This document shows, piece after piece, positions 11,221-29,986 of a stretch of DNA of 31,069 bases. The stretch comes from a virus. The DNA lies in the IMG/VR virus record IMGVR_UViG_3300037108_000013, positions 1-31,069 of that record; one strand, written 5' to 3'. Position numbers and translations under genes: made by a program. The notes beneath the pieces were generated by a model. It did no database searches, was not told the DNA's origin, and saw only the letters and a list, made by a program, of their open reading frames with translations. Numbering within the stretch: the first letter of the stretch is position 1; every line of letters begins with the position of its first letter.

Positions 11221-11364
11221 ATGGGAAGAAAACGAATATACAAAACTAAAGAGGAAATTCTTGAATCCAGACGAAAATGGGCCAGAGAATATTATCACCG
11301 AAACCAAGAAGAGTGTAAAAGAAAAAGAATGAAAAGGTATCATGAAGAAACTAACGACAAATGA
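11221..11364 (+). CDS. Small basic protein overlapping endonuclease start
   Basis: 47 residues, strongly basic: G-R-K-R near the N-terminus, K-T-K-E-E, then R-K-W-A-R-E-Y-Y-H-R-N-Q-E-E-C-K-R-K-R-M. It is closely related to the ORF at 16434-16580 (shared W-A-R-E-Y-Y-x-R-N-Q-E-E-C-K-R-K-R-M), and both precede a DUF723-type endonuclease. Its 3' end overlaps the nuclease start in the +1 frame, 121 nt after its own ATG. A variant TACTTAT box lies 6 nt before the ATG. Conservation in two places argues that it is a real gene, probably a DNA-binding partner or a leader that couples translation. Function unknown. Confidence 0.65.
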   Translation: MGRKRIYKTKEEILESRRKWAREYYHRNQEECKRKRMKRYHEETNDK

Positions 11365-12274
11365 GTTTATTAAGAGGGCAAAAAAAGTTCATGAGAATAA
11401 ATATGACTATTCTAAGTCTGTTTATGTTGATAGATATACAAAAATTGATATAATTTGTAAAACGCATGGTATTTTTCATCAAGATGTCTATAGTCATTTG
11501 TATGGATTTGGGTGTGATAAATGTGGTGGTACTTACAAATTAGATACAAAAGAGTTTATAAAACGAGCAAAAGAAACTCATAAAAATTTTTACAACTATT
11601 CCAAATCTGATTATAAGGGGATGCATGAAAAATTAAAAATCATATGTCCAATCCACGGAGAATTTTCACAAAAAGCACAAGGACATTTAATAGGAAAGGG
11701 ATGTAGGAAATGTAAATATGATAAACACAAAATTTTAACCCGTAGCAACATTCAAGAATTTTCTAAAAAAGCCAAGAGAATACATAATGATAATTATAAT
11801 TATTCTAATTCAAATTATATAAATAGCAATACAAAAATATATATTCTATGTAATAGATGTAAAAAAATATTTAATCAAACACCACACGATCATTTAGACG
11901 GTCACGGATGTCCATATTGCCCTCACCACATCTCAAAACCAGAAATTCTTTTTTTAAATTTTCTAAAAATAACCCAACGACAAAATTATATATGTGGATA
12001 TAAAGTTGATGGTATAAAAGGAAATAAGATATTTGAATTTTTGGGAAACTACTATCACGGAAATCCAAAAATTTATAAATCAAAAGAATACAATCAGATT
12101 TGTCATAAAACATTTGGTGAATTATATAAAATTACAAAAAGAAAACTCACATTATTAAAAAACGAAGGATATAAGGTCTATTATATTTGGGAAAAAGATT
12201 GGAATGACTGGAATAACGGTATAATAAAAACATTTCCTATTAAACTTGTCTCTCAACCAATGACAACTTACTAA
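11342..12274 (+). CDS. DUF723-repeat homing endonuclease with Vsr-like nuclease core
   Basis: 310 residues. Three DUF723-type repeats of about 58 residues each cover 1-180: F-I-K-R-A-K-x-x-H, Y-D-Y-S, I-I-C-K-T-H-G-I-F, H-L-Y-G-F-G-C-D-K-C. Each has paired Cys/His that look zinc-binding. The C-terminal part (V-D-G-I-K-G-N-K-I-F-E-F-L-G-N-Y-Y-H-G, then K-R-K-L-T-L-L-K-N-E-G-Y-K-V-Y-Y-I-W-E) resembles the Vsr/EDxHD nuclease fold used by phage homing endonucleases. It lies on the opposite strand to the structural genes around it and its last 35 bases overlap the end of the gp14-like gene. Selfish DNA that targets a nearby late gene is the likely role. Confidence 0.8.
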   Translation: MKKLTTNEFIKRAKKVHENKYDYSKSVYVDRYTKIDIICKTHGIFHQDVYSHLYGFGCDKCGGTYKLDTKEFIKRAKETHKNFYNYSKSDYKGMHEKLKIICPIHGEFSQKAQGHLIGKGCRKCKYDKHKILTRSNIQEFSKKAKRIHNDNYNYSNSNYINSNTKIYILCNRCKKIFNQTPHDHLDGHGCPYCPHHISKPEILFLNFLKITQRQNYICGYKVDGIKGNKIFEFLGNYYHGNPKIYKSKEYNQICHKTFGELYKITKRKLTLLKNEGYKVYYIWEKDWNDWNNGIIKTFPIKLVSQPMTTY

Positions 12275-13143: not shown

Positions 13144-13588
13144 AATCTCGTTCTGGTGGACTGAAATCAATACCACCTAAAATCATGTCATCAATCTTTC
13201 TCTGATTTTGACTCATGTGCGCTGAAACAGCCTTCTTTATGATTTCTTGATATTGTGGTTGTAATGAATCTGGATTAATTTCTGTCTCACCATTTACAGT
13301 CATACCAACAACCCAATAATCAAGTTCATCAATGGATGCGCTTTCACCGGGTTCTGAATTTTCTGGAGGTCCAAACATTCCTGTTGCTTCATGGCCCGGA
13401 CTAGCGGAGTATTCAATAGTAACGTTTACCACCACAGAATCGGTAGGTTGAATAATGCCGGGAATGGTAATACCATCCAATTCAATTTCATAATCCTCAT
13501 ATTCACCAGAAGATGGCATATTTCGTCTTCCGTGATAGATTTCTTTTATGATTTCCTTGATTAGTGCTTTTGCTTGATACTTTTTCAT
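13124..13588 (-). CDS. Hypothetical acidic protein between neck genes
   Basis: 154 residues from the ATG at 13588, which forms an exact ATGA overlap with the stop of the homing endonuclease upstream; a start at 13615 would lie inside that gene. N-terminus MKKYQAKALIKEIIKEIYHG is a basic amphipathic helix with L-I-K-E at 9-12, similar to T4 internal-protein leaders in style. The rest is acidic and beta-rich (Y-E-D-Y-E-I-E-L-D-G-I-T-I-P-G-I, V-V-V-N-V-T-I-E-Y, D-Y-W-V-V-G-M-T-V-N-G-E), ending in a D-Y-D-P-D-D-R tail. No known family recognised. Could be a small virion protein or a packaged protein. Confidence 0.72.
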   Translation of the reverse strand: MKKYQAKALIKEIIKEIYHGRRNMPSSGEYEDYEIELDGITIPGIIQPTDSVVVNVTIEYSASPGHEATGMFGPPENSEPGESASIDELDYWVVGMTVNGETEINPDSLQPQYQEIIKKAVSAHMSQNQRKIDDMILGGIDFSPPERDYDPDDR

Positions 13589-14259
13589 ATTATTATTTTT
13601 TGACCATATACACATTTCGTTTCTAATACATTACCATCTTTATTTAATTGGGTTCTTACAAAACTATATAATGGTTTCCCTATTGACTCAAAATATTTAA
13701 CGATGTTATTTTGTCTTATTAAATCTTTTTTTTGTTGAGTAATATTCTTATGATATGGAGTATCATATTCATACCAAATATGCTTATTTTTATCATATCC
13801 ATCTGCAGCATATCCAATTTCCATAAATATTTTCGGTTGAAAATTATATCCCAACTCATTAACTTTATTAAAAAATTCTATAGCGCCTTTATCCATACAT
13901 TGAGGAATACCTAATTTTTCTAATCTTTTTAATTTAGATATTCTAATGTTTTTTCTATATTCCGCAGAACGAATTTTTCCTTTTGCTGATTGAGATAGTT
14001 TTATTTTTGTCTCATAAGATACACCCCTAGTTTTATTCCATGTATTTTTTCCTTTCATTGCGATGGACATTTTATTCTTAGTTTCATCTGATAATTTTTG
14101 TCCTTTCATCCAAGTATTTTTTCCTATATGGGAACAAGATTTACAAGGATGATTATATTTCAATGATTCATCTAATGATTTTTTATTCTTAAATGATTGC
14201 AATCCACCACATTTTGGGCATTGTTTTTGATATAATTCGTTGATGGCTATATTATTCAT
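13585..14259 (-). CDS. Zinc-ribbon/EDxHD homing endonuclease inserted after gp13-like gene
   Basis: 224 residues from the ATG at 14259. Cys14, Cys17, Cys39 and Cys42 form an N-terminal zinc ribbon. The middle has NUMOD3-like repeats (L-S-D-E-T-K-N-K-M-S, G-V-S-Y-E-T-K-I-K-L-S). The C-terminal core D-G-Y-D-K-N-K-H-I-W-Y-E-Y-D-T-P-Y-H and K-D-L-I-R-Q-N-N-I carries the Glu-Asp-His-Asp pattern of Vsr-like EDxHD homing nucleases. It is embedded so exactly that its start overlaps the gp13-like stop (ATGA) and its stop overlaps the next start (ATGA), giving translational coupling with no loss of neighbouring coding sequence. Close paralogues are at 23414 and, decayed, at 9669. Confidence 0.85.
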   Translation of the reverse strand: MNNIAINELYQKQCPKCGGLQSFKNKKSLDESLKYNHPCKSCSHIGKNTWMKGQKLSDETKNKMSIAMKGKNTWNKTRGVSYETKIKLSQSAKGKIRSAEYRKNIRISKLKRLEKLGIPQCMDKGAIEFFNKVNELGYNFQPKIFMEIGYAADGYDKNKHIWYEYDTPYHKNITQQKKDLIRQNNIVKYFESIGKPLYSFVRTQLNKDGNVLETKCVYGQKIII

Positions 14260-15497
14260 AAAATTATACAACACATGAATGCCCAAGCCCCGATATATAT
14301 AAAAAGAGGGACACGCTTTAATACTTCCTGCATTTGTTCAGCCTGCAATGAGTCGTTTTCCATTTGTTGTTTTTGGGTAGTCAATTGAAGTGATTCTCTC
14401 AATTGTGTAATCAGGTCTGCCTTCTCTGTCTGAGCTTCATTACGCAACTCAGCACCGTCCAGCGTAACGTCAGCACCCGGAATTGGGAGAGACTGATACT
14501 TTTGACGAATACAACCAAGGATTTCTTTGCAACAGGCCAAGAAATATTTACGAATCCATTGTCTTCCAACCGAATTGATTGTGTTGTAGGTGACAAGGTT
14601 ATAAGGAATATTTGAATAATCAGAAACGTAACTGCCCGTGTAATTTGGATTATTTGCCAATGAACCACTGTATCTATCATTACGAAGCATGTAATTGAAA
14701 TAGACCTTGAATGAATAGGTTGGGATAGGAAACAGTTTTAGTTTGTTGTTGACTAACTCAAATGAGTAGGCAGATTTACGAACCATGTCGTTGAACTGAA
14801 TGGCCTGACCACGAAGCAAATCTTCAAAGATTGGTGTCATCAAGAATTGAACGGCTGGTGAATAACCACCAAAACCAAGTTCATTTAAAACGTTGGAATA
14901 ACTCATACCCGTCATGGAGAATGGGTCATAGATACGGGCAAAAGCTGGTGGGAAGTCGTGAAATACCCTCATTACTTCAATTCTATTACAGTTCTCTACT
15001 TTATCGCCCCAGAGTTCTTGAATATCATATGTTTGTTGATTTGGACGTGCAATTATAAAGCCCTTCTTCCAATCAGCATAACCACCCACGCCAACTTCAC
15101 TTCCATATCCTTTTGCAAGTTCAATAACGTAAGGTAGTGGTGTTCCTGTTACAGCTTTACCTGTAAGATTTCCAATGGTATTTAGTTGTTGTCCTTGAAA
15201 TACTTGTAGATAGTTTTGAATATTAACCTGATTAACTTGCGCTGAATATTCATTTACCGCCTCTTCGTAGGCAGCATAGAAGTTGACATCGAGCATTTCA
15301 ATATCAACCACGGGGTATCCAAGACGATAAGCGGCCCAAATAGCCGCTGCCTGCGCATCTGACTGAAATAGGTAGTCATTATCGTAAAAACCAAAAGGGG
15401 TTCTGCCTTGGACAGACGACCCCGACCCTTGCCACCTGATACGATCTTGGTCCACCAAGGTTGTAGGATTTGTAATTGGGGATACAACGTCACTCAT
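14256..15497 (-). CDS. 13: gp13-like neck protein
   Basis: 413 residues. The C-terminal third matches T4 gp13 clearly by eye: R-Q-W-I-R-K-Y...C-K-E-I-L-G-C-I-R-Q-K-Y, then I-P-G-A-D-V-T-L-D-G-A-E-L-R-N-E-A-Q-T-E-K-A-D-L (T4 has N-R-W-V-K-D-Y, K-E-L-N-G-Q-I, P-G-G-V-T-I-D-G and E-A-R-L-E-K). The middle shows I-E-V-M-R-V-F-H-D and F-E-L-V-N-N-K-L-K-L-F-P-I-P. gp13 forms the neck on the portal to which the tail docks. About 100 residues longer than T4 gp13, mostly N-terminal. The last residues (I-G-A-W-A-F-M-C-C-I-I-L) are hydrophobic and may have been altered where the downstream endonuclease inserted. Start overlaps an upstream endonuclease stop (ATGA). Confidence 0.85.
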   Translation of the reverse strand: MSDVVSPITNPTTLVDQDRIRWQGSGSSVQGRTPFGFYDNDYLFQSDAQAAAIWAAYRLGYPVVDIEMLDVNFYAAYEEAVNEYSAQVNQVNIQNYLQVFQGQQLNTIGNLTGKAVTGTPLPYVIELAKGYGSEVGVGGYADWKKGFIIARPNQQTYDIQELWGDKVENCNRIEVMRVFHDFPPAFARIYDPFSMTGMSYSNVLNELGFGGYSPAVQFLMTPIFEDLLRGQAIQFNDMVRKSAYSFELVNNKLKLFPIPTYSFKVYFNYMLRNDRYSGSLANNPNYTGSYVSDYSNIPYNLVTYNTINSVGRQWIRKYFLACCKEILGCIRQKYQSLPIPGADVTLDGAELRNEAQTEKADLITQLRESLQLTTQKQQMENDSLQAEQMQEVLKRVPLFIYIGAWAFMCCIIL

Positions 15498-16459
15498 ATT
15501 TTATTTCCATTATATTTTTTTATAGGAAATATGCTGATTTTATCTTTATTCCAAAAATTCCAGTCATTTTCCCACATATAATAAATAGAATACCCCAACC
15601 CGTTTAGTTTACTAAACTTCTCTATAGTTTTATTGTATAATTCACCAAATGTTTTATGACAAATTTGATTATAAAGGGTAGCATCATACTTTTTGGGATT
15701 TCCGTGATAATAATCACCAAGAAATTCAAATATTTTGTTATTTTTTATTCCATCAACTTTATATCCGTTTACGTATTTTTGCCGGTTGTTTATAGTGTTA
15801 GGAATTTTTAGATATTTTAAAAATTTTATTTCCGTTTTTGAAATTCTATGAACACATCTAGGACAATCATTTCCATTCATATGTTTATATGGTGATTGAT
15901 AAAAATAACCATGTTTTTTACATAATATTTTAACTTTTGTCATTGTATTCACCCAGTTTATTTTTGAGTAATCATATTTATTTTTATGGAATTTTTTGCA
16001 TCTTTTAAGAAATGTGTTTTTAGATATTTTATAATTTTTAGAACATTTAGGGCATCCACACCCATTTAAATGTTCGTTCGGTGTCTGATTGAAAACACCA
16101 TGTTTAAAACACCTTATTTTAACTTTTTGTCTATTTGGTCTTCTTTTGGAATTATAATTATTATCATATTTTACTAACGAATAATCATATGCATCACCAT
16201 GAACACTTTTTGATTTTTCAATAAAAGATACTATGTCATCAGAAAACATTTTGGACATTTTAATGTTTCTACACAAAGGACATCCACATTTTTTGTTTAT
16301 ATGGTTGTCGGGAGATTGATAGAATATACCATGCAATTGACAAATCACTGATATTTTTTTATGAGAGGTTATATACAATACATTTGAATAATCATATCTA
16401 TCACCATGCACCTTTCTAGCCTTTTCAATAAACTCATTTGTTGTTAATTTTTTTCTCAT
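15494..16459 (-). CDS. DUF723-repeat homing endonuclease upstream of gp13-like gene
   Basis: 321 residues, paralogue of the 11342-12274 product. Three DUF723 units (F-I-E-K-A-R-K-V-H-G-D-R-Y-D-Y-S ... I-C-Q-L-H-G-I-F-Y-Q-S-P ... C-G-C-P-L-C) precede the nuclease-like core V-D-G-I-K-N-N-K-I-F-E-F-L-G-D-Y-Y-H-G and the Y-Y-M-W-E-N-D-W end. The second repeat has an insert of about 7 Arg/Lys-rich residues. Its stop overlaps the gp13-like start as ATGA, while its own start is overlapped by the small basic ORF at 16434-16580. The role is presumably mobility. It is co-transcribed with neck genes. Confidence 0.83.
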   Translation of the reverse strand: MRKKLTTNEFIEKARKVHGDRYDYSNVLYITSHKKISVICQLHGIFYQSPDNHINKKCGCPLCRNIKMSKMFSDDIVSFIEKSKSVHGDAYDYSLVKYDNNYNSKRRPNRQKVKIRCFKHGVFNQTPNEHLNGCGCPKCSKNYKISKNTFLKRCKKFHKNKYDYSKINWVNTMTKVKILCKKHGYFYQSPYKHMNGNDCPRCVHRISKTEIKFLKYLKIPNTINNRQKYVNGYKVDGIKNNKIFEFLGDYYHGNPKKYDATLYNQICHKTFGELYNKTIEKFSKLNGLGYSIYYMWENDWNFWNKDKISIFPIKKYNGNKI

Positions 16460-17336: not shown

Positions 17337-18032
17337 ATGACTACTATTCGTATTTTTGAGGTTGGCGGGTCAATTCGTAATGAATTGCTCGGCAAGTCTG
17401 CAAAGGACAGAGATTTTGCTGTGATTGCTCCTGACTATATTACCATGCGACAATACCTTTTAGACAAAGGAGCAACATTTTACCAAGAACGACCACAATA
17501 CGTAAGTATTAGAGCAAAACTATCTCCTCTAGGAGCGGTGGATTTTACTCTTGCTAGAAAAGAGTCGTTTTACACCGACGCAAGACATCCAGACAAAGTT
17601 ACTCCGGCTCTAACCATCGAAGAAGATTTGTCACGAAGAGATTTTCGAATGAATGCTATAGCCCGAGAAATTGGTACACCGGAGTTGATTGATCCGTTTG
17701 GTGGCCAATTAGATATTACTAATAAATGTATCCAATCGGTGGGTAATGCTATAGACAGGTTTAAAGAGGACCGACTTCGTATTTTCAGGTCTATTCGATT
17801 CGCATGTCAATTAGATTTTACTATCGGTCAGGAAGTTAGCAATGCAATTGATGAGTTTAAAAATATTGTAGATTTCGAATCAGTTACAAAAGAAATGATG
17901 CAAATTGAACTTTGCAAAACTTTTAGTTCTGATTGGAGACGTGCAATATCAATTTTACAATTTCACCCGTTTTTATGGGATGTAATAGAAAATAAAGGAA
18001 TATGGTTCAAGCCTACATTAGAAGATAGATGA
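17337..18032 (+). CDS. Class II CCA-adding enzyme / poly(A) polymerase-like nucleotidyltransferase, short
   Basis: 231 residues. All head-domain motifs are visible: G-G-S at 10-12 with R-N-E-L-L-G, metal-binding Asp24 and Asp26 (D-R-D-F), a third carboxylate Asp69 (A-V-D-F), R-R-D-F-R-M-N-A-I-A at 100-109, D-P-F-G-G at 119-123, and E-D-R-L-R-I-F-R-S-I-R-F-A at 144-156. This family adds CCA or A residues to RNA 3' ends. Bacterial enzymes are usually around 400 residues, so the body and tail domains are missing. The catalytic set is intact, so a small nucleotide-adding enzyme acting on tRNA or another RNA is plausible. Unlike its neighbours it has no cargo leader and has a host-type promoter, so it probably acts early in the cytoplasm. 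Confidence 0.88.
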   Translation: MTTIRIFEVGGSIRNELLGKSAKDRDFAVIAPDYITMRQYLLDKGATFYQERPQYVSIRAKLSPLGAVDFTLARKESFYTDARHPDKVTPALTIEEDLSRRDFRMNAIAREIGTPELIDPFGGQLDITNKCIQSVGNAIDRFKEDRLRIFRSIRFACQLDFTIGQEVSNAIDEFKNIVDFESVTKEMMQIELCKTFSSDWRRAISILQFHPFLWDVIENKGIWFKPTLEDR

Positions 18033-18092: not shown

Positions 18093-19211
18093 ATGATAAA
18101 AATGGGTCAACTTATAAAAGAAGTATTCGAACTTCCTCCTGAAATTAATACCGAAGCAGAGAGGTTGACCCAACTTATTGCGTCTATGTTTGGTAGAAGT
18201 ATCACAGGTCAGGGATTTCTTCCTTTAACCAAAAAGTATTGGAATGACAATGCTCCATTTTTCAGCATAAAAAGGTCTAATAAAGGAACAAGTTGGGGAG
18301 GGGCTCAGTATGAAATAACATCAAAGAGCGGTCTTTATTCTCCGGTTTATTTATGCGTCACTCATAGTGATGACGACGCGACTTCTGGTTATATACACAA
18401 TGATGGTGAAGCAATATACATTAAAGCTGATGAAAAACATTTTACAGAAAATTTCAAAACATCGGTGGATGAATTGAGAGAAACTATAAAACATGAGTTA
18501 AGACACTACGTTCAAATAAAACAGAAAGTTGGATTTCCTAGAAGAAAACTAATGAGTAAAACATATAATATACATGGATTTACTGATGACCCAAGGTATA
18601 AGAGAACAAGACAACCACATCATCTTAGGGATATAGAATTCAAAACTAATCTACATAGTTATGCCTATTATATAAAGAGAAGTTTACAACAATCTCTTGA
18701 TAAAGGAAGATGGGCAGACCAGTTTAGAAAAATAATTACTGGTCAGTATGATGGTGATGATAGAATTAAGAATTTTTCTGACAATCTAATTGACATGGCC
18801 AAAAGAGACCCGACAAGGTGGAAACAATTTGTTCTTGAATTGTGGAAATTGGTATTTTCATCAAAAAAGAACGTTGATGAAATAAGGAGTCCATATGAGA
18901 AACCATCATTAACTGATAAAAATAGAGGATATATAGGCATCGTTTCACATAACAGAGTTTATGGATATGAAGAAGAAGTTCCAAATGTATATGAAGTTGA
19001 TCATTCTGAAATAGAATATGGTGCCAATGACGGGCGATTTAGGTATGTAACAGAGGGCGGCATAGTATATTGGAATCATTTTCCTCCAACCGATGAAGAA
19101 AGGGAAGTTGTCGAAGAATGGTTAGGAAAGAAAAATATTAAAGTTAACTCTCATAGATGCGCATATACACAACTTCCTCCATTACCACCAATTATCAAAC
19201 CACATGATTAA
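18093..19211 (+). CDS. Zinc metalloprotease-like protein (HELRH) with capsid-targeting-like leader
   Basis: 372 residues. Leader MIKMGQLIKE (I8, E10). The segment L-R-E-T-I-K-H-E-L-R-H-Y-V-Q holds an HExxH zinc site (His134, Glu135, His138), and H-H-L-R-D-I-E-F-K-T-N around Glu182 could give the third ligand, as in gluzincins. The N-terminal part (30-110) is beta-rich. The C-terminal 150 residues are of unknown type. A peptidase that acts on a host protein after injection, or on virion proteins, is the best guess. The substrate is not evident. A TATTTAT box lies 6 nt before the ATG. Its 3' end overlaps the next gene by 8 nt, so the two are translationally linked. Confidence 0.75.
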   Translation: MIKMGQLIKEVFELPPEINTEAERLTQLIASMFGRSITGQGFLPLTKKYWNDNAPFFSIKRSNKGTSWGGAQYEITSKSGLYSPVYLCVTHSDDDATSGYIHNDGEAIYIKADEKHFTENFKTSVDELRETIKHELRHYVQIKQKVGFPRRKLMSKTYNIHGFTDDPRYKRTRQPHHLRDIEFKTNLHSYAYYIKRSLQQSLDKGRWADQFRKIITGQYDGDDRIKNFSDNLIDMAKRDPTRWKQFVLELWKLVFSSKKNVDEIRSPYEKPSLTDKNRGYIGIVSHNRVYGYEEEVPNVYEVDHSEIEYGANDGRFRYVTEGGIVYWNHFPPTDEEREVVEEWLGKKNIKVNSHRCAYTQLPPLPPIIKPHD

Positions 19212-20265
19212 ACTCAAAAATATATTGAAAGAAATTGAAGAAGAAGATGATATGGAATTCATGTATCATCTTAAAGCTTTTGAACTTCGATTGAAAGACG
19301 AATTTCCTCAAATAAATAGTTTGAGTTTAGTATTACGTCCCGGTGGCGATATTCATATTGTTTCAATAGTTATCAGAAAATCGGAAAGACGAAAGGGAAT
19401 AGGAAGAGAAGTTATCAAGAGGATACTCAAATTTGCAGATGACTATGACAAACATGTAACTCTTCATATGGTTCCACAGCCAAGATATAAGGCTAAGTTG
19501 AACAAACTCTATAGAAACTTAGGATTTAGACCAAATAGAGGAAGGCACATGATACCTCAATATTCTAACCCATTTCACGGTATAATGATGCGAAAGCCGG
19601 GTGATAAAACAAGAATTGAAGAAGGTGTTGCACGTCTTGAAAAAGGTGATACAATACTAACAATCCCAACAGAGAAGGGTGATTATAGAGTTAGGGTATT
19701 CAAGTTCAAAAGAGGCGGTATTACCAAATACAACTTCGATATAAATTCTCCACCAGACCACTATGAAAACTATGGTGGTAAACCTATGGCCGTTGGTGGA
19801 ACGTGTCATTTAGGAACTAGTGGCACCAACATAGAACAAGTATATGCAGAATTGGCAGCAACTCTAAAGAAGTTAGGTCTTCCATACGTCCAATCTTTGA
19901 AACTGAAAATCATTGATACAGAAACTCCTGAAAAGCAAGCAATGTTAGATAAACTAGAAGATGTTATAGTCGCATTTCAACAAGAAATGGAAAAGCCAGA
20001 AAATCAGCCAAAACAGTTTGGAATGGGACCGCCTGATTACAGTCAGTGGATTAGTGGCGAAGACGTAAAATATGGAAGGCTACAAAAGACCATCGAAAAC
20101 TATGGCGACTTTTTCATAGTCATCAAATGGGCACAAAGTCCAAGAGACGTAATGAAAGCCAGTGATTTTTTGAAACACTATGAACATATCATAGCAGGTA
20201 AAGAAGCGAAGGGTGACTATGCTAGGGAAGTATTTATAAGAAGTGATCCATTCAAAGGAATATGA
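19204..20265 (+). CDS. GNAT acetyltransferase fused to unknown domain, capsid-targeting-like leader
   Basis: 353 residues. Leader MIKLKNILKE (L8, E10). Residues about 17-130 form a GNAT fold: I-V-S-I-V-I-R-K-S-E then the acetyl-CoA loop R-R-K-G-I-G at 62-67, and L-N-K-L-Y-R-N-L-G-F-R-P near 110, the usual motif B. Residues 140-353 (G-D-Y-R-V-R-V-F-K-F-K, G-G-T-C-H-L-G-T-S-G-T, W-A-Q-S-P-R-D-V) are a second domain I do not recognise. Acetylation of a host protein, toxin or RNA polymerase component on entry is a possible role. No own promoter box; start overlaps the protease gene by 8 nt. Confidence 0.78.
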   Translation: MIKLKNILKEIEEEDDMEFMYHLKAFELRLKDEFPQINSLSLVLRPGGDIHIVSIVIRKSERRKGIGREVIKRILKFADDYDKHVTLHMVPQPRYKAKLNKLYRNLGFRPNRGRHMIPQYSNPFHGIMMRKPGDKTRIEEGVARLEKGDTILTIPTEKGDYRVRVFKFKRGGITKYNFDINSPPDHYENYGGKPMAVGGTCHLGTSGTNIEQVYAELAATLKKLGLPYVQSLKLKIIDTETPEKQAMLDKLEDVIVAFQQEMEKPENQPKQFGMGPPDYSQWISGEDVKYGRLQKTIENYGDFFIVIKWAQSPRDVMKASDFLKHYEHIIAGKEAKGDYAREVFIRSDPFKGI

Positions 20266-20271
20266 TAAAAC

Positions 20272-21027
20272 TCAAACCTTACCATAAAAATTTATTTTTG
20301 GATCTTTTATTCTAATTATTTTACAATTTAAAAAGTTTTTTATTTCGTTTTCTCTTAAAACGTCTTTATCTTTTAGAGTTCCATCTTTATTAAAATGGCG
20401 CCTTTCATCCCACTCATAAACAATATTATTTTCTTTATCATAACCATCCAGCCAATAACTTAATTCTTTTATAAAATATTCACCACCATTTAAAGCGTGT
20501 TGTATATTGCATTCATTTTTCTTATTTAATTGATCAAAATATTTACAAGCATTTACATTATAAGATGGATGAAAATTAGTATGAGTTTTTAATAATCTCT
20601 CTACCATTTGTTTTCTAAACAATCTTTTTAATCTATTACTTGTTTTTCTTCCTTTATTACCATATCCACATCCCGCTTTAATACATGATATACTTCGTTT
20701 TTTATTTGATTGAAAACTCATTACACGATTAGACATCATAATTTTTAGTTCTTTTGATTTTTCTTTCCCATAAATTTCTTCTAAAGTTTTACCCTTTCTA
20801 AAGTCAGCATTTTTTGGTCGTTGTCCCTTTTTAAACCACGATTTTCTCATTTTTTGCAAAGTCTTTTTTGGAACTTTACCGTTTTTGTGAATGGTTGATG
20901 GATGGCCAATTTTAGAACACGACCTACATTTTCTATTTTTACTAATAGATTCGGTCAAACTCCAACGGTCTTTATAAAACACATACTTATTACACGATGG
21001 ACAGTTTTTATAAAAATTAGTCTTCAT
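20272..21027 (-). CDS. Zinc-ribbon/EDxHD homing endonuclease
   Basis: 251 residues, opposite in strand to the cargo genes beside it and ending 6 nt from the GNAT gene stop. Cys9, Cys12, Cys34 and Cys37 form the zinc ribbon. A basic middle region (K-K-T-L-Q-K-M-R-K-S-W-F-K-K-G-Q) follows. The core W-L-D-G-Y-D-K-E-N-N-I-V-Y-E-W-D-E-R-R-H-F (Glu205, Asp207, His211) with K-D-V-L-R-E-N-E-I has the EDxHD nuclease pattern. AAGGAG 8 nt before the ATG is a good ribosome site and lies inside the small ORF 21017-21157. It is more diverged than the pair at 13585 and 23414. Confidence 0.83.
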   Translation of the reverse strand: MKTNFYKNCPSCNKYVFYKDRWSLTESISKNRKCRSCSKIGHPSTIHKNGKVPKKTLQKMRKSWFKKGQRPKNADFRKGKTLEEIYGKEKSKELKIMMSNRVMSFQSNKKRSISCIKAGCGYGNKGRKTSNRLKRLFRKQMVERLLKTHTNFHPSYNVNACKYFDQLNKKNECNIQHALNGGEYFIKELSYWLDGYDKENNIVYEWDERRHFNKDGTLKDKDVLRENEIKNFLNCKIIRIKDPKINFYGKV

Positions 21028-21157
21028 TAGATAACTCCTTTAATTTTTTCTTTTTGTTGTAATACCGCTTAGCATTTTCGGCTAATCTTTTTAGTCTCTC
21101 TTCCAACGTTTGATTGGAACGGTGTCTTCCTCTTTTTTTCTTTTCTTCCTTTATCAT
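21017..21157 (-). CDS. Small basic protein overlapping endonuclease start
   Basis: 46 residues, mostly Lys, Arg and Glu: E-E-K-K-K-R-G-R-H-R (AT-hook-like R-G-R), T-L-E-E-R-L-K-R-L-A-E-N-A-K-R-Y-Y-N-K-K-K-K. Composition and the Y-Y-N/R-N pattern recall the two small ORFs before the DUF723 nucleases, although sequence identity is low. Again the nuclease ATG overlaps it in the +1 frame. TATTTAT ends 6 nt before its ATG. Probably a leader or DNA-binding partner gene of the mobile unit. Confidence 0.6.
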   Translation of the reverse strand: MIKEEKKKRGRHRSNQTLEERLKRLAENAKRYYNKKKKLKELSNED

Positions 21158-21163
21158 ATGATA

Positions 21164-21170
21164 ATAAATA
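21164..21170 (-). promoter_or_regulatory. Start-proximal TATTTAT box
   Basis: TATTTAT on the minus strand, 6 nt before the small ORF ATG at 21157; divergent from the box at 21199. Confidence 0.5.
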
Positions 21171-21198
21171 TAAGTCAGATTAGTGAAAAAGGCAAATA

Positions 21199-21205
21199 TA
21201 TTTAT
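21199..21205 (+). promoter_or_regulatory. Start-proximal TATTTAT box
   Basis: TATTTAT, 6 nt before the ATG at 21212; it decides this start for the 2H phosphoesterase-family gene over the upstream in-frame ATG. Confidence 0.5.
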
Positions 21206-21211
21206 TGTTAT

Positions 21212-21961
21212 ATGATTAAATTGGGTGAAATGTTAACCGAAAATAGGGATTTATCTGCCCGGCGTGGATGTTTGATGTGTATGGTATCAAAAAAGGATTC
21301 TGACCTCATAGTAGAATTTGGAAAACGATTAATAAAAGATGAAGATTTGTATGTAGAAAATAATGAATATGGGCGAGAAAGTTCCCCATGTCATATAACA
21401 CTACGGTACGGATTTTTAAAGGATTTAAATGAGTTAGAAATCAGACAACTTCTTCAAAACCAAAAACCATTTATGGTAGAAATTATAGGACTGAATAAAT
21501 TTGAAAATCCACCAAAATACTCAGTTTCCGTATTTAAAGTTAATAGTCCTGTGTTAAAACAATTAAATGAAATGTCAGGTATATATTTGAATGAGAATGA
21601 TTACCCTGAATATTTGCCTCATTTAACGTTATGTTATACTAAACCGAACGCAAATATTCCTGTTAAGGAAGGACTAAAATTAAAAACTCTTATTACAGAA
21701 ATATGCTATAGCCCGATTCAGGGTGGTAAATCTTATTTCAATTTAGACGAAGGAAATATCCATCATGATATTGATAGTCAAATTGCTCGTCTTGAACAAG
21801 AATGGGAACGGTTGGATGCTATGGGTGGAAATACCGGTGGCAGACAACAGGATATAGAACAGGAACTTATACACCTTAGATACGAAAAGGAAGGTCAACC
21901 TTTGGGCCCAAATGACCCTAAATCAAAAGAACTTTGGGATAAATTGAAGCAATCAATATAA
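21212..21961 (+). CDS. 2H phosphoesterase-family protein with capsid-targeting-like leader
   Basis: 249 residues from the ATG at 21212, chosen because TATTTAT ends 6 nt upstream and the protein then starts with the leader MIKLGEMLTE (L8, E10); an in-frame ATG at 21110 lacks both. Two H-x-T-h motifs, His61-Ile-Thr-Leu and His137-Leu-Thr-Leu, about 75 residues apart, define the 2H phosphoesterase superfamily (LigT, CPDase, tRNA-ligase CPD domains, phage Acb1). Such enzymes open 2',3'-cyclic phosphates or cleave cyclic oligonucleotides. The C-terminal 60 residues are a charged helix (I-A-R-L-E-Q-E-W-E-R-L). Its stop overlaps the next start (TAATG). Confidence 0.78.
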   Translation: MIKLGEMLTENRDLSARRGCLMCMVSKKDSDLIVEFGKRLIKDEDLYVENNEYGRESSPCHITLRYGFLKDLNELEIRQLLQNQKPFMVEIIGLNKFENPPKYSVSVFKVNSPVLKQLNEMSGIYLNENDYPEYLPHLTLCYTKPNANIPVKEGLKLKTLITEICYSPIQGGKSYFNLDEGNIHHDIDSQIARLEQEWERLDAMGGNTGGRQQDIEQELIHLRYEKEGQPLGPNDPKSKELWDKLKQSI

Positions 21962-22863
21962 TGATTAAACTAAAATCACTATTAGAAGAAAATGTGTATG
22001 AATATTTCTATCATGCAACGACTCCAAATGCGTTGCCTAACATAGTAAATCGCGGTCTTATGCCTTCGGAAAATACAAATTGGGGTGGAGACTTGGGAAA
22101 ATTTAGTGAAGGAAAAATATTTGTTACCAAAAAATTCCGAACGGCGAATTATTATGGGAATATTATATGGAGAAACAACTCAAATAGATATCGTCCCATA
22201 TTAAGATTTAAATATAATAAACTTCGCTTTATACCCGATAAACGATCGACCGATGATTTTTATGTAGAATTTACACTCAAGGCGCGTTTTGAGATGTTCG
22301 TGTATAATGAAAATACTAAAATAGAAACAGAACATAATGGAGATATGTGGTTTAATGAACATACTGGACATTGGAGGCCGTTGACGAAAGAACTATCAGA
22401 GAGTATTTCAACAGGAGAATGGGATGGGGAGGAACCAGAAAATTATGAAGATTTAAAAGAAATAGAATATCCTCTTGCTAAGAAGGGCGAACTTCAATCT
22501 TATGAAGGTATGGCTGACTGGAAAGGTAAAATCGTTTGGATGTCCCCTGACAAATTCTTGAGCTTGGTTCTCCCTCTAAATTATCCAGAGGTTGATAAAT
22601 TGAAGAAAGTAACAAAACGATTAAGAAGAAATTTACCCATTGATTTTTTGGTACTAAAAGTCAACGCAGAGGAAAATAGAGTAGTGGGTCATGAGGGAAG
22701 ACATAGAGCATTAGTATCTAAAAAATTGGGAATTGAAAAGGTTCCTGTGTTAGTATATTTTGCTGAATATAACGACGCATATCCAAGAGTCCCTAAATGG
22801 ACACAACAACAGCACGACTACGCCGACAAGGCAGAATTCGAGCGTGAACGCCCACAGGAGTAA
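21961..22863 (+). CDS. ADP-ribosyltransferase-like plus ParB-like fusion, capsid-targeting-like leader
   Basis: 300 residues. Leader MIKLKSLLEE (L8, E10). Residues 15-110 look like an ART/PARP-type fold: Y-F-Y-H-A-T-T (15-21), I-V-N-R-G-L-M-P-S, G-K-I-F-V-T-K at 51-57 and A-N-Y-Y-G, then R-P-I-L-R-F-K. Residues about 195-270 match a ParB/sulfiredoxin-like domain: M-S-P-D-K-F-L-S-L, I-D-F-L-V-L-K-V, and the signature V-V-G-H-E-G-R-H-R-A (241-250) with L-G-I-E-K-V-P-V. T4 Alt is a packaged ADP-ribosyltransferase, so an injected ART is precedented. The fusion recalls phage polyvalent proteins. Catalytic competence cannot be judged by eye. Confidence 0.7.
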   Translation: MIKLKSLLEENVYEYFYHATTPNALPNIVNRGLMPSENTNWGGDLGKFSEGKIFVTKKFRTANYYGNIIWRNNSNRYRPILRFKYNKLRFIPDKRSTDDFYVEFTLKARFEMFVYNENTKIETEHNGDMWFNEHTGHWRPLTKELSESISTGEWDGEEPENYEDLKEIEYPLAKKGELQSYEGMADWKGKIVWMSPDKFLSLVLPLNYPEVDKLKKVTKRLRRNLPIDFLVLKVNAEENRVVGHEGRHRALVSKKLGIEKVPVLVYFAEYNDAYPRVPKWTQQQHDYADKAEFERERPQE

Positions 22864-22875: not shown

Positions 22876-23430
22876 ATGAAACTTGCAACATTAATCAAAA
22901 TCAATGAGTGGATTAGTCACGCCCCAGCCGTGAATGCTAATCCTGACTCTAAATTGCGTCCTGTTCCGGGCGGATGGAATGATAACTCACCTAACTGGAA
23001 TGATAGTGTAGAAAATTGGGATGGAATTATTGAGGGTGGTAAAGGACAATATTTTTGTTACGTTGAGAGTAACGATTGGGAGAAGAAGCGTTCAGGAGCC
23101 ATCGTTTATATTACAGAAGATGATAAACCTCACAAGATTTGGATGAAGATAAAGACTCACGGGCTACGCAAAAAGAACGATACCAATGAAAGCTATAAAG
23201 AACGTGTAAGAAAGCACACCAATAAGGTTGCTAAGTCTTGGATGAGTGAAGCAAAAAAATTATACAAAAACGTTGAGATTAACGAAGCAGGTAATCCAGT
23301 TCCTATTACATGGAAACAGGCTTTCCGCGAGGCAATGCAAGATGATAAGGTAAAAGAGTGGATGGCAGAGTGTGGCGAACAGGAAATAGCCCCTCTGGCC
23401 GACCCTGTGAATTTTACAAACACTGTATAG
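22876..23430 (+). CDS. Hypothetical protein with capsid-targeting-like leader
   Basis: 184 residues, unrecognised. It begins MKLATLIKINEWISHA, a slightly shifted form of the leader with I-N-E at 9-11. The body is Trp- and Lys-rich (G-G-W-N-D-N-S-P-N-W-N-D-S-V-E-N-W-D), with a beta region (Q-Y-F-C-Y-V-E, G-A-I-V-Y-I-T-E-D-D) then helical basic stretches (S-Y-K-E-R-V-R-K-H-T-N-K-V-A-K-S-W). No catalytic motif seen. TATTTAT ends 5 nt before the ATG, although the upstream gene stops only 13 nt before the ATG. The 3' end overlaps the convergent endonuclease gene by 17 nt. Confidence 0.75.
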   Translation: MKLATLIKINEWISHAPAVNANPDSKLRPVPGGWNDNSPNWNDSVENWDGIIEGGKGQYFCYVESNDWEKKRSGAIVYITEDDKPHKIWMKIKTHGLRKKNDTNESYKERVRKHTNKVAKSWMSEAKKLYKNVEINEAGNPVPITWKQAFREAMQDDKVKEWMAECGEQEIAPLADPVNFTNTV

Positions 23431-24139
23431 TTTCTATAAGATTACCTGTTTTATTTACCTTTATTCTTGTAAATTGATTTAGTGGCTTACCTATAAATTC
23501 AAAGTATTTTATGATATTATTTTGACGTATTAGGTCCTTTTTCTTTTGATGTGGTTGCCTGTGATATGGAGTATCATATTCAATCCAAATGTGTTTTTCT
23601 TTATCATAACCATCCGCCCTATAACCCCACTTCCAAAAAGTTTTTGGTTGAAAGTTACTATTTGTTTCTTTATTATATTTGGCAAACCATTCCTTAGACC
23701 CTTTATCTTCACAATCAGGAATACCCAAATTTTCCATCCTTTTTAATATTTGTATTCTTCTTTTTCTTTTCCATTCTTCAGTGTGATGCTTTCCATAAAA
23801 CGCATTTTTGACTCCTGTATTTATTTTAGATAATTTCAATTTGTGTTCCTCAGATAATATTTTACCGCTGTGAAATTTTGACATTTTTTCTTTTGTGTTT
23901 TCTGTGTGATATTTTCCTATTCTTGGACTCCATCCCTGTTTATATTTTTCCTTGGTGCCATCAGAACAACTTTTTTTGAATTCTTGGGTCATGGATTTTC
24001 CTTTATTCCAACAGGGGCGTCCCTTCATATTACAAGAATAACATTTTGTATTTTTTTCTATAGAATATTTTAATGCGTACTTATTACAATAATTTAGTTC
24101 AACCCCACACTCAGGGCAATTTCGTTTAAATTCTTTCAT
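23414..24139 (-). CDS. Zinc-ribbon/EDxHD homing endonuclease
   Basis: 241 residues from the ATG at 24139 (TATTTAT ends 4 nt upstream; an earlier in-frame ATG at 24163 encodes only a hydrophobic extension). Cys8, Cys11, Cys33 and Cys36 form the zinc ribbon. Several NUMOD3-like repeats follow (L-S-E-E-H-K-L-K-L-S, H-T-E-E-W-K-R-K-R-R). The core A-D-G-Y-D-K-E-K-H-I-W-I-E-Y-D-T-P-Y-H and K-D-L-I-R-Q-N-N-I-I-K-Y-F-E is almost the same as in the 13585 copy, so the two are recent relatives. It lies antisense between two cargo genes and overlaps the end of the upstream one. Confidence 0.85.
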   Translation of the reverse strand: MKEFKRNCPECGVELNYCNKYALKYSIEKNTKCYSCNMKGRPCWNKGKSMTQEFKKSCSDGTKEKYKQGWSPRIGKYHTENTKEKMSKFHSGKILSEEHKLKLSKINTGVKNAFYGKHHTEEWKRKRRIQILKRMENLGIPDCEDKGSKEWFAKYNKETNSNFQPKTFWKWGYRADGYDKEKHIWIEYDTPYHRQPHQKKKDLIRQNNIIKYFEFIGKPLNQFTRIKVNKTGNLIETIQCL

Positions 24140-24143
24140 AAGA

Positions 24144-24150
24144 ATAAATA
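24144..24150 (-). promoter_or_regulatory. Start-proximal TATTTAT box
   Basis: TATTTAT on the minus strand, 4 nt before the endonuclease ATG at 24139; it decides this start over 24163. Confidence 0.45.
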
Positions 24151-24217
24151 TAATGAAAAACATAAAAAAGCGTACATATCAGTAAATTTCACACCGAAAA
24201 TATAAATATTTTACTTC

Positions 24218-24224
24218 TATTTAT
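24218..24224 (+). promoter_or_regulatory. Start-proximal TATTTAT box
   Basis: TATTTAT, 4 nt before the ATG at 24229. A T4-late-like TATAAATA is also present at about 24201-24208. Confidence 0.5.
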
Positions 24225-24228
24225 AGAT

Positions 24229-24654
24229 ATGATTAAATTAAGACCATTAATAGGAGAAGTTATGATAAACAGAACAATCAGTTACTCGGCGGTGGTGTTG
24301 GACGATAGAGACAAGAAAAAATTATTAGAGATTTTTGCTGGTCAAATACCTGATAACTGGAGTAAATATGCGGAACACATGACTATAAAAATGGGTGAAC
24401 TTCCATTAGAAAAGAAACAAGATATTGGCAGTAGAGTTCAACTAACCGCATTTGAGTTTGGTAAGTCTGAGAAGGCCATAGCCGTAAAGGTAAGGGGATA
24501 TTGGACGACCAACGAAACCGCACACATCACATTAGCTGTGAATACCGACATTGGTGGTAAACCAGTAGATTCTAATAAGATTGTCCATTGGAAACCTCTC
24601 CCAAATACAATTCCTCTTACAGGCGTTGTTACCGAAATACCTTTTAGAAGGTAA
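24229..24654 (+). CDS. Small 2H phosphoesterase-like protein (Acb1-like in size) with capsid-targeting-like leader
   Basis: 141 residues. Leader MIKLRPLIGE (I8, E10). His50-Met-Thr-Ile and His99-Ile-Thr-Leu form paired H-x-T motifs in a single compact domain, with I-S-Y-S-A-V-V-L-D as the first strand and G-G-K-P-V-D-S-N after the second motif. Size and motif layout are close to T4 Acb1 (57B), a 2H enzyme that destroys CBASS signalling nucleotides, and to tRNA-ligase CPD domains. An enzyme that enters with the DNA and removes cyclic nucleotides or repairs RNA ends is the inferred role. TATTTAT ends 4 nt before the ATG. Confidence 0.75.
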   Translation: MIKLRPLIGEVMINRTISYSAVVLDDRDKKKLLEIFAGQIPDNWSKYAEHMTIKMGELPLEKKQDIGSRVQLTAFEFGKSEKAIAVKVRGYWTTNETAHITLAVNTDIGGKPVDSNKIVHWKPLPNTIPLTGVVTEIPFRR

Positions 24655-26635: not shown

Positions 26636-27232
26636 TTAATATTTTTCTCGTTTCTCATTATTTGGGGGAAATATTTCTGTTTTGATAACTTTTATAACAT
26701 CAAACATTTTTACTATAAAAACATCTATAGTTTTTGTTACGATTTCCGGATTTGATACCAAAAGTTGATTTATATTTTCAATATCTAATTGGACGGTTAG
26801 TGTATCTCCTGTATAAGAATTTACCGAAACGTGACCTGGAAGATTTTGACTTACGCGTAGAAAATTACCATGTTGAGACATTCCGTGTGTTGCTTTAATA
26901 CCTATTTTATTTAATGCATATATTATATCACCAACGAAATCATTAATTTGAAAATTAAATGGTTCCATCGTATATTTTTTTTCACTATTTACCATACTAT
27001 TTGGAAAGTAAAAACTATTTTGATCGATCATTTCTGCCGAGTTTGTTATCGTATCACTATGAATAACATCACACATTATTCCTAATGATTTTTGATATAT
27101 ATCGAATTGAAATTCTCCCGTTGACCCCTCAATTTTATAATGAGATTTTAATTCTTCCACCCTCCGCATATAGTATTGAACTAATTCTTTAATAGAAACA
27201 GATTCTATAATGAGATTTTTAAGTTTAATCAT
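26636..27232 (-). CDS. Hypothetical protein with capsid-targeting-like leader
   Basis: 198 residues, unrecognised. Leader MIKLKNLIIE (I8, E10) followed by S-V-S-I-K-E-L-V-Q. The body alternates helix and strand (Y-Y-M-R-R-V-E-E-L-K, G-E-F-Q-F-D-I-Y-Q-K-S-L-G-I-M, I-N-D-F-V-G-D-I-I-Y-A-L-N-K-I-G-I) and ends in a C-terminal helix (F-I-V-K-M-F-D-V-I-K-V-I-K). H-G-M-S-Q-H-G-N contains two His but no known catalytic pattern. TATTTAT ends 6 nt before the ATG. It is the first gene of the minus-strand half of the cargo block, and the next gene has its own box. Confidence 0.75.
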   Translation of the reverse strand: MIKLKNLIIESVSIKELVQYYMRRVEELKSHYKIEGSTGEFQFDIYQKSLGIMCDVIHSDTITNSAEMIDQNSFYFPNSMVNSEKKYTMEPFNFQINDFVGDIIYALNKIGIKATHGMSQHGNFLRVSQNLPGHVSVNSYTGDTLTVQLDIENINQLLVSNPEIVTKTIDVFIVKMFDVIKVIKTEIFPPNNEKREKY

Positions 27233-27276: not shown

Positions 27277-28029
27277 CTATACTAGTTTTCGTCTTTCACG
27301 AAGAATGGTCGCCTTGGAAGTACCGTATTTCAACTCTAACTGCGGTATGGTAAAATTGTTTGATAAAATATCTTTATGAAGGTCATTTCTGATAATTTTT
27401 AAGTGATGTTTTCTCTCTGAAATACGCTTTTTTATTTCCTCTGGCATTGGTCCTCTTTTAACACCTGAACATTTGTTATCGTATGAGTAATTCATTTTAC
27501 GATTTTTCAGCGCTGTGTTGCGGTCTTGAAATTTTTTACTACCTTTTTCATTGCCATAACGTTCTATAAACCATTCCAATGTATAACGACCTACGGATTT
27601 TTCTTTCATTTCTTTGATTGTGTTTTCATTGTGTGTTTTACCGAACATTCCGTTGCCTTCGCCGTGATTTATTATTTTCATTTTTTCTATGAAAGCTTCT
27701 TTGTTGGGGTTATGTGTTATATTATCACCACCTTCTGCTGTAGGACAAATATTATACCCAATTTTTCTTTCATATGGTTTTAGTAGATTAAGATGATACT
27801 GCTCTCTTTCCAAAAGTAAATTTTCATCTGATTTTACTTCCTCTATTACATCAAACGAAAACTTATCTTCGCCGTAAAAATCCCAAGAATGTTGTAATTT
27901 AGGATTGATGTGTCGTTTTGCTCTAAGGTCGTTCTTATGACAATACCATCTGTGTTCAATATCTTTTGAGCTTCCAACGTAAAACTTTCCATTAACCTTA
28001 TTTGTTATTTTGTATATTCCACTTTTCAT
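27277..28029 (-). CDS. GIY-YIG homing endonuclease (SegA-like)
   Basis: 250 residues from the ATG at 28029 (TATTTAT ends 4 nt upstream; an ATG 6 nt earlier lies within that box). G-I-Y at 4-6 and Y-V-G at 17-19, Arg27, and Glu76 in R-E-Q-Y-H match the GIY-YIG catalytic set. A NUMOD3 repeat (G-M-F-G-K-T-H-N-E-N-T-I-K-E-M) and another near 210 (M-P-E-E-I-K-K-R-I-S-E-R-K) bind DNA along the groove, and the end (I-P-Q-L-E-L-K-Y-G-T-S-K-A-T-I-L) looks like a helix-turn-helix. It sits right after the capsid gene, a favoured place for free-standing Seg-type nucleases in T4-like phages. Confidence 0.9.
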   Translation of the reverse strand: MKSGIYKITNKVNGKFYVGSSKDIEHRWYCHKNDLRAKRHINPKLQHSWDFYGEDKFSFDVIEEVKSDENLLLEREQYHLNLLKPYERKIGYNICPTAEGGDNITHNPNKEAFIEKMKIINHGEGNGMFGKTHNENTIKEMKEKSVGRYTLEWFIERYGNEKGSKKFQDRNTALKNRKMNYSYDNKCSGVKRGPMPEEIKKRISERKHHLKIIRNDLHKDILSNNFTIPQLELKYGTSKATILRERRKLV

Positions 28030-28033
28030 ATTC

Positions 28034-28040
28034 ATAAATA
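28034..28040 (-). promoter_or_regulatory. Start-proximal TATTTAT box
   Basis: TATTTAT on the minus strand, 4 nt before the GIY-YIG gene ATG at 28029. Confidence 0.45.
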
Positions 28041-28135: not shown

Positions 28136-29986
28136 TTATACTGTGTCCAAATCTGCGACAAGTATCTTGCCATAAAACTCAGGGCGAACTATTTTCTTCG
28201 CGTAACGGGTCATTACACCACGTCTCGGCGTGAAGTTCACAGGGTCATAGACCAACGGGGTCTGAACTAGTGGAATGTATGGGGCATATACTGCACCAGT
28301 TTCCAAGAAGTTATTGCCACGGAAGCCCATGAGGATGACGTTATCCGTCATATATGGGTTCTTGTAAACTTGGAATCGACTTGCGAAGCTACCAACTCTA
28401 CTAACACCCATTGCGAACTTGGCTTGATCGCCATCTGTATTCACCACGAAGCCCGGAATAGATTCCAAGATCGTTGCTACTGCTGGTGATAGAACCATGA
28501 AGTTGGCACCACCACGAAGCGTTAGCTGGTGAATCTTGTTTGATACCTTTTGAATCTTGTTACCAAGAGTCTGATACCATGTAGCCTTGGTGTAGTAACC
28601 ACCGGTGCCTGCGACCTGCTGGTCAACTGCCATCCAAGCGCCAGAACCATTAGGAACGATTTCGCGGTTTAGGCGAGCGCTCCAACGTTCAGTCGTGTAG
28701 GCTGGAACAGTTGTAATCAACATATCAAGGATTTCCAAATCAATTTCCATAGAAACGTATTCGGAAAGCAAAGCAGTAAGTTCTGCTTCTGCGTCAATGC
28801 TGTGATAAGCATTCAAGTCTTGAGCCAATTCTGGGGTCCAGACGGCTTTCAACTTACGAGTCTTGGCGACAATAGGTTCGCTCTTCAACTCAAGGTTCAC
28901 TTCTGGGATACCAATATCGTTGTTAAGACCTAGTGTTCCACCGTTAGTATCAGCTACACCGTATTTACCTGTTGGATAGGTAAAACCACTACTATTAATA
29001 TTATTGTTAGTATTCCAGTTATTATCTTCGAAGTCACCACGATTGGCTGGTGTGGTTTGAACTGTGTAGAGAATAGTACCACCAACGACACCGAGGTTGG
29101 TAGAAATAGACGCTGATTGAGCTGATGAAGCTGAAATCACGAATGAAACTTCTCCCTGCTGAGCGCCACCCGGGCTCATACCAAAACCGCCTACGAACTT
29201 CGTAAATGGTGGGAAATAGAGAGGAGCTTGTGATATTACACTTGAACCTGTCGTTAAACCCGCTGGAACGAAAGCACGGACTGCCAACGGATCAAATGGG
29301 TTACCCTGATTTACAGTGTTTTGATAGAAGTTTGTTGAGGTAATTGTTAGAAGATTACCAGCGACCCATGAACCAGAAATGCTGTTTACAACAGTCTGAA
29401 CAGAACCGGATTGGGCAGTTTGGGTATAATAGTTGGTCAACCAATTAATATCTTCCAATGTAGCCGTAGCAACCGTGAAGGATGCTGTTACATACTTCTG
29501 ATTGATGGTATAGGCAAATCTACCTGCGCCATACAAACCACCCACTGGGAGGTCCGTTGAGCCAAGTTTCTTACCTGTGCCACCGAATAGTGATTGATAA
29601 TATGAACCAGACTGGTCAGCAGGGGCACCAAGATGGTTGGAACCATACTTGAAGTCCAAATAGAACACGAGTCCTGATGGGAGGTTCATTGGCTGAACGG
29701 AAACGAATTCCTTCGCTGCGAATTCAGCAAATACACGTCTGACCAATGGAAGGGCTACGCCGGCCCACTGTTCAGAGTTTGCGGAAGTACCAGTAGCAGT
29801 TGCTTCTTCAATCAGTTGTTTAGCCTGATTTTCCAAAAGAACTGACATATTGGACTTTTCAATATCACTCTTGATACCTTCAAGCAGACCAGTCTTATCC
29901 CACTTGGTCACAAGACCACGGGTTTCCTGCATCAAACGAGCTTGAGGATTTAGAGTGTTTGTCAATAATGATTTAATGTTATCCAT
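28136..29986 (-). CDS. 23: gp23-type major capsid protein precursor
   Basis: 616 residues. The N-terminal region is the helical delta-like arm (about 61 residues) ending L-L-E-N-Q-A-K-Q-L-I-E-E-A-T. An I-E-E/A site at 59-61 matches the L/I-x-E cleavage rule of gp21, and T4 gp23 is cut after residue 65. Then A-L-P-L-V-R-R-V-F-A-E-F-A-A-K-E-F-V-S-V-Q-P-M-N-L-P-S-G-L-V-F resembles the gp23 V-Q-P-M-N-x-P-x-G core, and later W-T-P-E-L-A-Q-D-L and E-Y-V-S-M-E-I-D-L-E-I-L are also typical. An insertion of about 100 residues (170-330) is Ser/Thr/Gly-rich. It builds the hexameric shell. A TATATAAA sequence 15 nt before the ATG may be a late promoter; terminator downstream. Confidence 0.95.
   Translation of the reverse strand: MDNIKSLLTNTLNPQARLMQETRGLVTKWDKTGLLEGIKSDIEKSNMSVLLENQAKQLIEEATATGTSANSEQWAGVALPLVRRVFAEFAAKEFVSVQPMNLPSGLVFYLDFKYGSNHLGAPADQSGSYYQSLFGGTGKKLGSTDLPVGGLYGAGRFAYTINQKYVTASFTVATATLEDINWLTNYYTQTAQSGSVQTVVNSISGSWVAGNLLTITSTNFYQNTVNQGNPFDPLAVRAFVPAGLTTGSSVISQAPLYFPPFTKFVGGFGMSPGGAQQGEVSFVISASSAQSASISTNLGVVGGTILYTVQTTPANRGDFEDNNWNTNNNINSSGFTYPTGKYGVADTNGGTLGLNNDIGIPEVNLELKSEPIVAKTRKLKAVWTPELAQDLNAYHSIDAEAELTALLSEYVSMEIDLEILDMLITTVPAYTTERWSARLNREIVPNGSGAWMAVDQQVAGTGGYYTKATWYQTLGNKIQKVSNKIHQLTLRGGANFMVLSPAVATILESIPGFVVNTDGDQAKFAMGVSRVGSFASRFQVYKNPYMTDNVILMGFRGNNFLETGAVYAPYIPLVQTPLVYDPVNFTPRRGVMTRYAKKIVRPEFYGKILVADLDTV

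Follow-up and report, generated by a model that had tools for sequence, protein, structure and literature searches.

The open reading frame (ORF) at 24229-24654 (+; 141 aa, called P0001) raises the question of which branch of the 2H phosphoesterases it belongs to, and whether its product travels in the phage head. It lies in a 31-kb virus fragment (31,069 nucleotides, the whole of the DNA analysed, here called the window). From the letters alone, it had been predicted to encode a small packaged 2H phosphoesterase resembling the anti-CBASS enzyme Acb1. The catalytic motifs named in that prediction are present exactly as described: H50-M-T52 at 24376..24384 and H99-I-T101 at 24523..24531, both on the plus strand and within a tRNA_lig_CPD/CNPase-like 2H domain (24265..24651, +) identified with PF08302, phrog_36523, a structural model and fold search. 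In an alignment of 26 homologues, H50, T52, H99 and T101 are invariant, as is a family signature, P112-V-D-S-N116 (24562..24576, +), which is preceded by K111 in most. One further homologue outside this alignment, L129, has KPKDSN at this place. Selection on the gene is strongly purifying (dN 0.17, dS about 2 versus the closest relative; dS is near saturation), and the paired H-x-[ST] motifs lie in a modelled 2H fold. The 2H identity thus holds, and the motifs are not a chance occurrence.

Scores within the enzyme family are modest. The sole Pfam match is PF08302, the fungal tRNA-ligase cyclic phosphodiesterase (CPD; 4.7e-5), and membership is by a thin margin, with 23.4 bits against a gathering cut-off of 23. 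Six of seven aligned family members match PF08302; one relative scores 24.7 bits, and others stay under the cut-off (e.g. 16.3 and 18.1). PHROGs gave one match, phrog_36523 (6.2e-8; function not annotated). In a tblastn search against phages, the relatives found were all distant (jumbo phages, e.g. Atu_ph07, Lak phages; crAss-like phages), and a scan of viral contigs with the seed alignment recovered 37 loci of the family. Cellular genomes hardly contain the family, as judged by a PVDSN-pattern search: among 84,980 there was a single partial match, which yielded no usable bacterial gene context. Sequence searches of the PDB with the single protein or a seven-member profile gave no meaningful match.

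The fold places the enzyme more precisely. A model built from the 26-member alignment has a mean pLDDT of 92.3, with low confidence only at the leader region, which appears disordered, and at the last few residues. Against the PDB, catalytic domains of CNPase come top (E 3.5e-4, TM about 0.7), followed by goldfish RICH and then fungal Trl1 (6u05, 6e-3); among the best 50 PDB matches listed, E. coli LigT is at rank 49 and Acb1 has no entry. Against viral models, giant-virus proteins are best (6e-6 and 1.2e-5), one of them named RNA ligase, and the first Acb1, from phage RisingSun, is eighth (1.3e-3; TM 0.47). Given both rankings, the likeness to Acb1 is at the level of the superfamily, and the CNPase/CPD branch is closer. 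The comparison with Acb1 proposed along with the original prediction thus returned a well-ordered 2H fold whose closest solved relative is CNPase, not Acb1. In relative L124, the enzyme domain is fused to HAD_SAK_1, a 'Swiss Army Knife' RNA-repair HAD phosphatase (5.9e-20). The tRNA-ligase CPD-like alternative, first named as equally possible, is therefore favoured by sequence, fold and domain fusion.

The enzyme is a homologue of the tRNA-ligase CPD domain, but not a tRNA ligase. It shares the two H-x-T motifs and the fold with the Trl1 CPD and vertebrate CNPase; in contrast to these it is a free-standing small domain, is about 12% identical to the solved structures and bears a leader of head-targeting type. 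The single-protein arrangement of Trl1 (CPD, polynucleotide kinase and RNA ligase) is not seen: the window enzyme stands alone, and its relatives are joined to a domain of no known family or to HAD_SAK, not to kinase or ligase.

The leader, MIKLRPLIGE (10 residues; 24229..24258, +), lines up with the T4 capsid-targeting sequence: its L4 and L7 occupy the positions used for targeting, and I8-G9-E10 those used for processing. In T4 internal proteins, a 10-residue propeptide targets the protein, with residues 4 and 7 governing targeting and residues 8 and 10 processing, and gp21 cleaves after L/I-x-E (PMC9026906). The cargo leader of the earlier prediction is thus present, and it belongs to a family whose enrichment at gene starts is significant. 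Counted over the window and its capsid-gene relatives, the pattern is found at 59 of 1,281 distinct ORF starts versus 6 of 4,197 methionines internal to ORFs (Fisher test, p about 4e-31), the pattern being derived from leaders of the window and a few relatives and so not independent, with most matches from other contigs. The window encodes a T4-type major capsid protein (gp23 family; 28136..29986, -; PF07068 4e-72, phrog_138). Each of the five long contigs from related phages has an S77 (gp21-type) prohead protease, and none was seen in the window itself, which is a fragment. The likeness to T4 IPI-IPIII and Alt thus comprises a leader of about 10 residues that is all that otherwise unrelated proteins have in common, hydrophobic positions 4 and 7, an L/I-x-E end at 8-10, the gp23-type capsid and, in relatives, the gp21-type protease. 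The leader consensus differs from T4 in its letters (MIKLKxLLxE), and the cargo here includes enzymes with RNA-related domains. By analogy with the T4 leaders, the enzyme is probably packaged in the head, as had been proposed and as the leader and phage type support well, and it would be injected with the DNA. The L129 leader (MIKLKTLITK) has no E at position 10, suggesting that cleavage may be dispensable or that its site may differ.

Further leader-bearing proteins are encoded in the window: a phage lysozyme (16674-17234), a protein with a HELRH metalloprotease-like motif (18093-19211), a GNAT acetyltransferase (19204-20265), an ADP-ribosyltransferase-like protein (21961-22863) and an unassigned protein (26636-27232, -). 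The ADP-ribosyltransferase-like assignment (21961..22863, +; leader MIKLKSLLEE...) is a weak one made by eye from a YHAT...GL start, the protein having no significant family match; similar ORFs in relatives show sub-threshold similarity to the KptA family (about 14 bits or less). In L129, GNAT-like and lysozyme-like parts are joined in one protein (5551-6513), suggesting that cargo domains are shuffled. CCA-adding-type enzymes carry a head-targeting-type leader in two relatives (L131 11575-13128, -; L130 7991-9478, -), suggesting that RNA enzymes are recurrent cargo; the window's version (17337-18032) is shorter and has no leader.

The enzyme is also the C-terminal half of a fused, leader-bearing protein of relatives. 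Upstream of it, 22876..23430 (+) encodes a 184-aa leader-bearing protein (MKLATLIKINE...; fold not assigned). This protein corresponds by homology to the N-terminal half and has a match in neither Pfam nor PHROGs. Four separate relatives (L087, L091/L008, L093, L094/L012) encode the two as one ORF of 307-333 residues (8001-8924 in L087) that starts with the leader. Between them in the window, exactly at the relatives' inter-domain linker, lies a NUMOD3 homing-type endonuclease gene (23414..24163, -; PF07460 5e-13). Homology to L087 at the DNA level ends at 23418 (...NFT), is interrupted by 850 bases that contain the NUMOD3 gene, and starts again at about 24269 in the enzyme. Both halves have dN/dS near 0.09 versus L087, with dS near saturation. 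Splicing of the halves through an intron was considered and rejected: where the endonuclease gene is inserted, Rfam matches neither a group I intron nor any other known RNA. All four fused relatives have the linker NFTPR-[LI]-x-E-[SQ] (FTPRLQE-S in L087), a gp21-type site, at which the prohead protease could separate the domains, although the support is thin, coming from four sequences related to one another and a motif of three residues. The IGE of the window leader is in register with the linker's [LI]-x-E and is preceded by MIKLRPL, so the leader looks part old linker and part new. Elsewhere the halves occur singly: L130 encodes only the N-terminal protein, which ends in NFTPRK, and L129 has the enzyme alone, its leader joined directly to the 2H domain. 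Ancestrally, a single fused leader-bearing protein would have been split by the homing endonuclease, as we infer from these arrangements.

This history bears on where translation starts. If it truly began at M12 (24262), the leader would be a by-product of the gene split and the enzyme would be unpackaged. Such a start would fit the AGGAG-type site directly before M12 (ATAGGAGAAGTT-ATG) and the presence of GGAGAA also in the ancestral linker codons. However, Shine-Dalgarno-like sites are rare at leader genes of these phages (3 of 55), the leader matches the consensus at every position, and in the closest relatives the enzyme stays behind the leader of the fused protein. Just upstream of the 24229 ATG is a promoter-like element, TATTTATA (24218..24225, +), common to other leader genes; TATTTAT, which this start has, precedes 20 of 62 leader ORFs versus 162 of 1,206 other ORFs (p=2e-4). 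The sequence context favours 24229 as the true start, and M12 is very unlikely. That the leader was taken over from a single identifiable gene was also considered and not adopted: the exact 27-base 5' cassette is found only in this virus, and a near-identical one with two differences is on a relative's lysozyme-like gene, which is suggestive only.

What the enzyme acts on is weighed among several possibilities. The original prediction was of an Acb1-like anti-CBASS nuclease, cutting cyclic oligonucleotide alarm signals on arrival. The enzyme and phage Acb1 (T4 gp57B, PF23474) do belong to one superfamily and have similar size and the same HxT/HxT catalytic pair, there is some fold likeness to Acb1 among the viral models noted above, and packaged 2H enzymes acting against signals are already an idea in the literature (PMC9503650). 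The claimed match in motif layout stands for the HxT pair and the size, but not for the spacing of the histidines, which is 49 residues here and 69 in Acb1 (H44/H113). PVDSN is absent from T4 Acb1, and around the second HxT the enzyme has NETAHITLAV, with no Acb1-type motif, versus DYTPHITLSY in T4 Acb1 and EYLPHLTLCY in a neighbouring 2H protein. PF23474 does not match 24229-24654 at E<=10; in a genome search its sole match in the window is 21482-21685, inside the neighbour's ORF. In hhalign against T4 Acb1, the enzyme family reaches 8% probability over 16 columns and the neighbour family 36%, both being weak single-sequence comparisons. With profile, fold ranking and motif all against it, and sequence, fold and domain fusion pointing to the CNPase/CPD branch, Acb1 membership was rejected. 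The anti-CBASS reading is left unsupported and is improbable; cyclic-oligonucleotide activity is conceivable at that same low level, since specificity is not readable from a sequence.

An Acb1-like, leader-bearing gene is in any case already close by. The neighbour (21212-21961, +) starts with the leader MIKLGEMLTE at 21212 within the ORF 21110-21961 and is barely like the enzyme family (16.8%). It matches PF13563 (7.9e-7) and, under the cut-off, Acb1 PF23474 (4.9e-5); four orthologues exceed the PF23474 cut-off of 27 bits (34.3, 31.7, 31.6 and 29.6) and others stay under it. In a fold search with its model (pLDDT 79), LigT is best and Acb1 7t27 is at rank 9 (7.7e-6), with a TM of 0.68 by target length for 7t26. 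On profiles and model, the neighbour is Acb1/LigT-like, not assignable to one of the two, and is a better candidate than 24229-24654 for a packaged anti-CBASS enzyme, a function that is predicted.

CNPase and plant cyclic phosphodiesterases act on small molecules of the 2',3'-cyclic nucleotide and ADP-ribose 1'',2''-cyclic phosphate type. The enzyme might likewise clear such products of RNA decay or of NAD-dependent repair or defence, rather than act on RNA ends. Such a role has been proposed for phage 2H enzymes (PMC9503650), and in three other loci an NT5C-type nucleotidase gene is next after the 2H gene, with a leader-like start common to both genes in two of them; RNA ends nevertheless fit better with the fusion to HAD_SAK and with best matches of ligase type, and a small substrate is unlikely. 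An Usb1-like RNase attacking host RNA on entry would be in line with Iyer et al. 2017, who argued that the 2H domains of packaged proteins have no link to ligases and could be RNases or degrade signal nucleotides, a view that also speaks against an RNA-end role. Usb1, however, is not among the best 50 PDB fold matches listed and the closest families are end-healing enzymes, making this reading highly implausible.

On balance, the best explanation as a whole, and a reasonably probable one, is that the product of 24229-24654 is a head-internal protein which a large T4-type phage injects to heal RNA ends. The 10-residue leader would target it into the prohead core, a gp21-type protease would cut after E10, and the mature 131-residue enzyme would be packed with the DNA and injected. 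As a 2H phosphoesterase of the CNPase/fungal tRNA-ligase CPD branch, it would open the 2',3'-cyclic phosphate of RNA with its paired H-x-T residues, leaving a linear phosphate (in known enzymes, the 2'-phosphate). It would likely serve to heal tRNA or other RNA ends produced by anticodon nucleases of the host or by toxin RNases, allowing ligases of phage or host to rejoin them from the first minutes of infection. By descent it would be the C-terminal part of a single leader-bearing protein whose linker held a protease-type site, the halves having been separated in this phage by the homing endonuclease and the enzyme now carrying its own leader.

An RNA-end function is made probable by the combination of the Pfam match, the CNPase/Trl1 fold, the giant-virus ligase matches, the HAD_SAK fusion, ligase genes and CCA-adding cargo. 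2H-superfamily proteins of jumbo phages have been described as specialised for 2',3'-cyclic phosphates (PMC7824862). The RNA ligase family PF09414 occurs in each of the same five long contigs that have the S77 protease. These ligases have no leader and were rejected as co-packaged partners; a packaged enzyme would therefore have to wait until a ligase is expressed, or depend on enzymes of the host. For the removal of the 2'-phosphate, no KptA-family partner scored above threshold, and KptA was dropped as a packaged partner, the relatives' ADP-ribosyltransferase-like cargo ORFs having only the sub-threshold similarity described above.

As the internal proteins of T4 show, phages load the host in advance with proteins that counter its defences. 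In the papers cited here, 2H domains predicted to be head-packed and injected are fused to head proteins (MuF or portal proteins) or belong to polyvalent proteins (PMC5512222, PMC9503650). In contrast, the short leader would be the means of packing here, and the 2H domain is of tRNA-ligase type. More tentatively, these phages may inject a leader-linked RNA-repair and counter-signal kit: a tRNA-ligase-type healer, an Acb1/LigT-type 2H protein and, in some relatives, a CCA-adding enzyme, part of it made as a polyprotein cut in the head by the prohead protease at a second, internal L/I-x-E site. The general idea of packaged 2H domains (PMC9503650) and the jumbo-phage 2H enzymes (PMC7824862) are already known; what is new is packaging by means of a leader, two 2H branches occurring as a pair, and the splitting of the fused protein. 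A short leader marking a whole island of enzymes, with two different 2H enzymes close together, would make injected cargo readable from sequence. It would also open to experiment the question whether phages, ahead of any expression of their own genes, mend tRNAs cut by the host or remove cyclic-nucleotide alarm signals.

About six homing-endonuclease-like genes lie among structural and cargo genes in the 31 kb (11342-12274, 13585-14286, 15494-16459, 20272-21027, 23414-24163 and 27277-28035), of NUMOD3, GIY-YIG and treble-clef types, 20272-21027 by resemblance only. In T4, acb1 (57B) directly adjoins the internal-protein gene ipI (L143 2092-2911, corresponding to T4 73591-74410). In another phage group (L112-L116; e.g. 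L115 5974-6366 and 6363-6902), a gene of the enzyme's 2H family has an NT5C-type nucleotidase gene directly after it. Both start with an M[KN]LxxLFE-like sequence, possibly a leader, which a one-pattern search of these contigs found only at these two genes.
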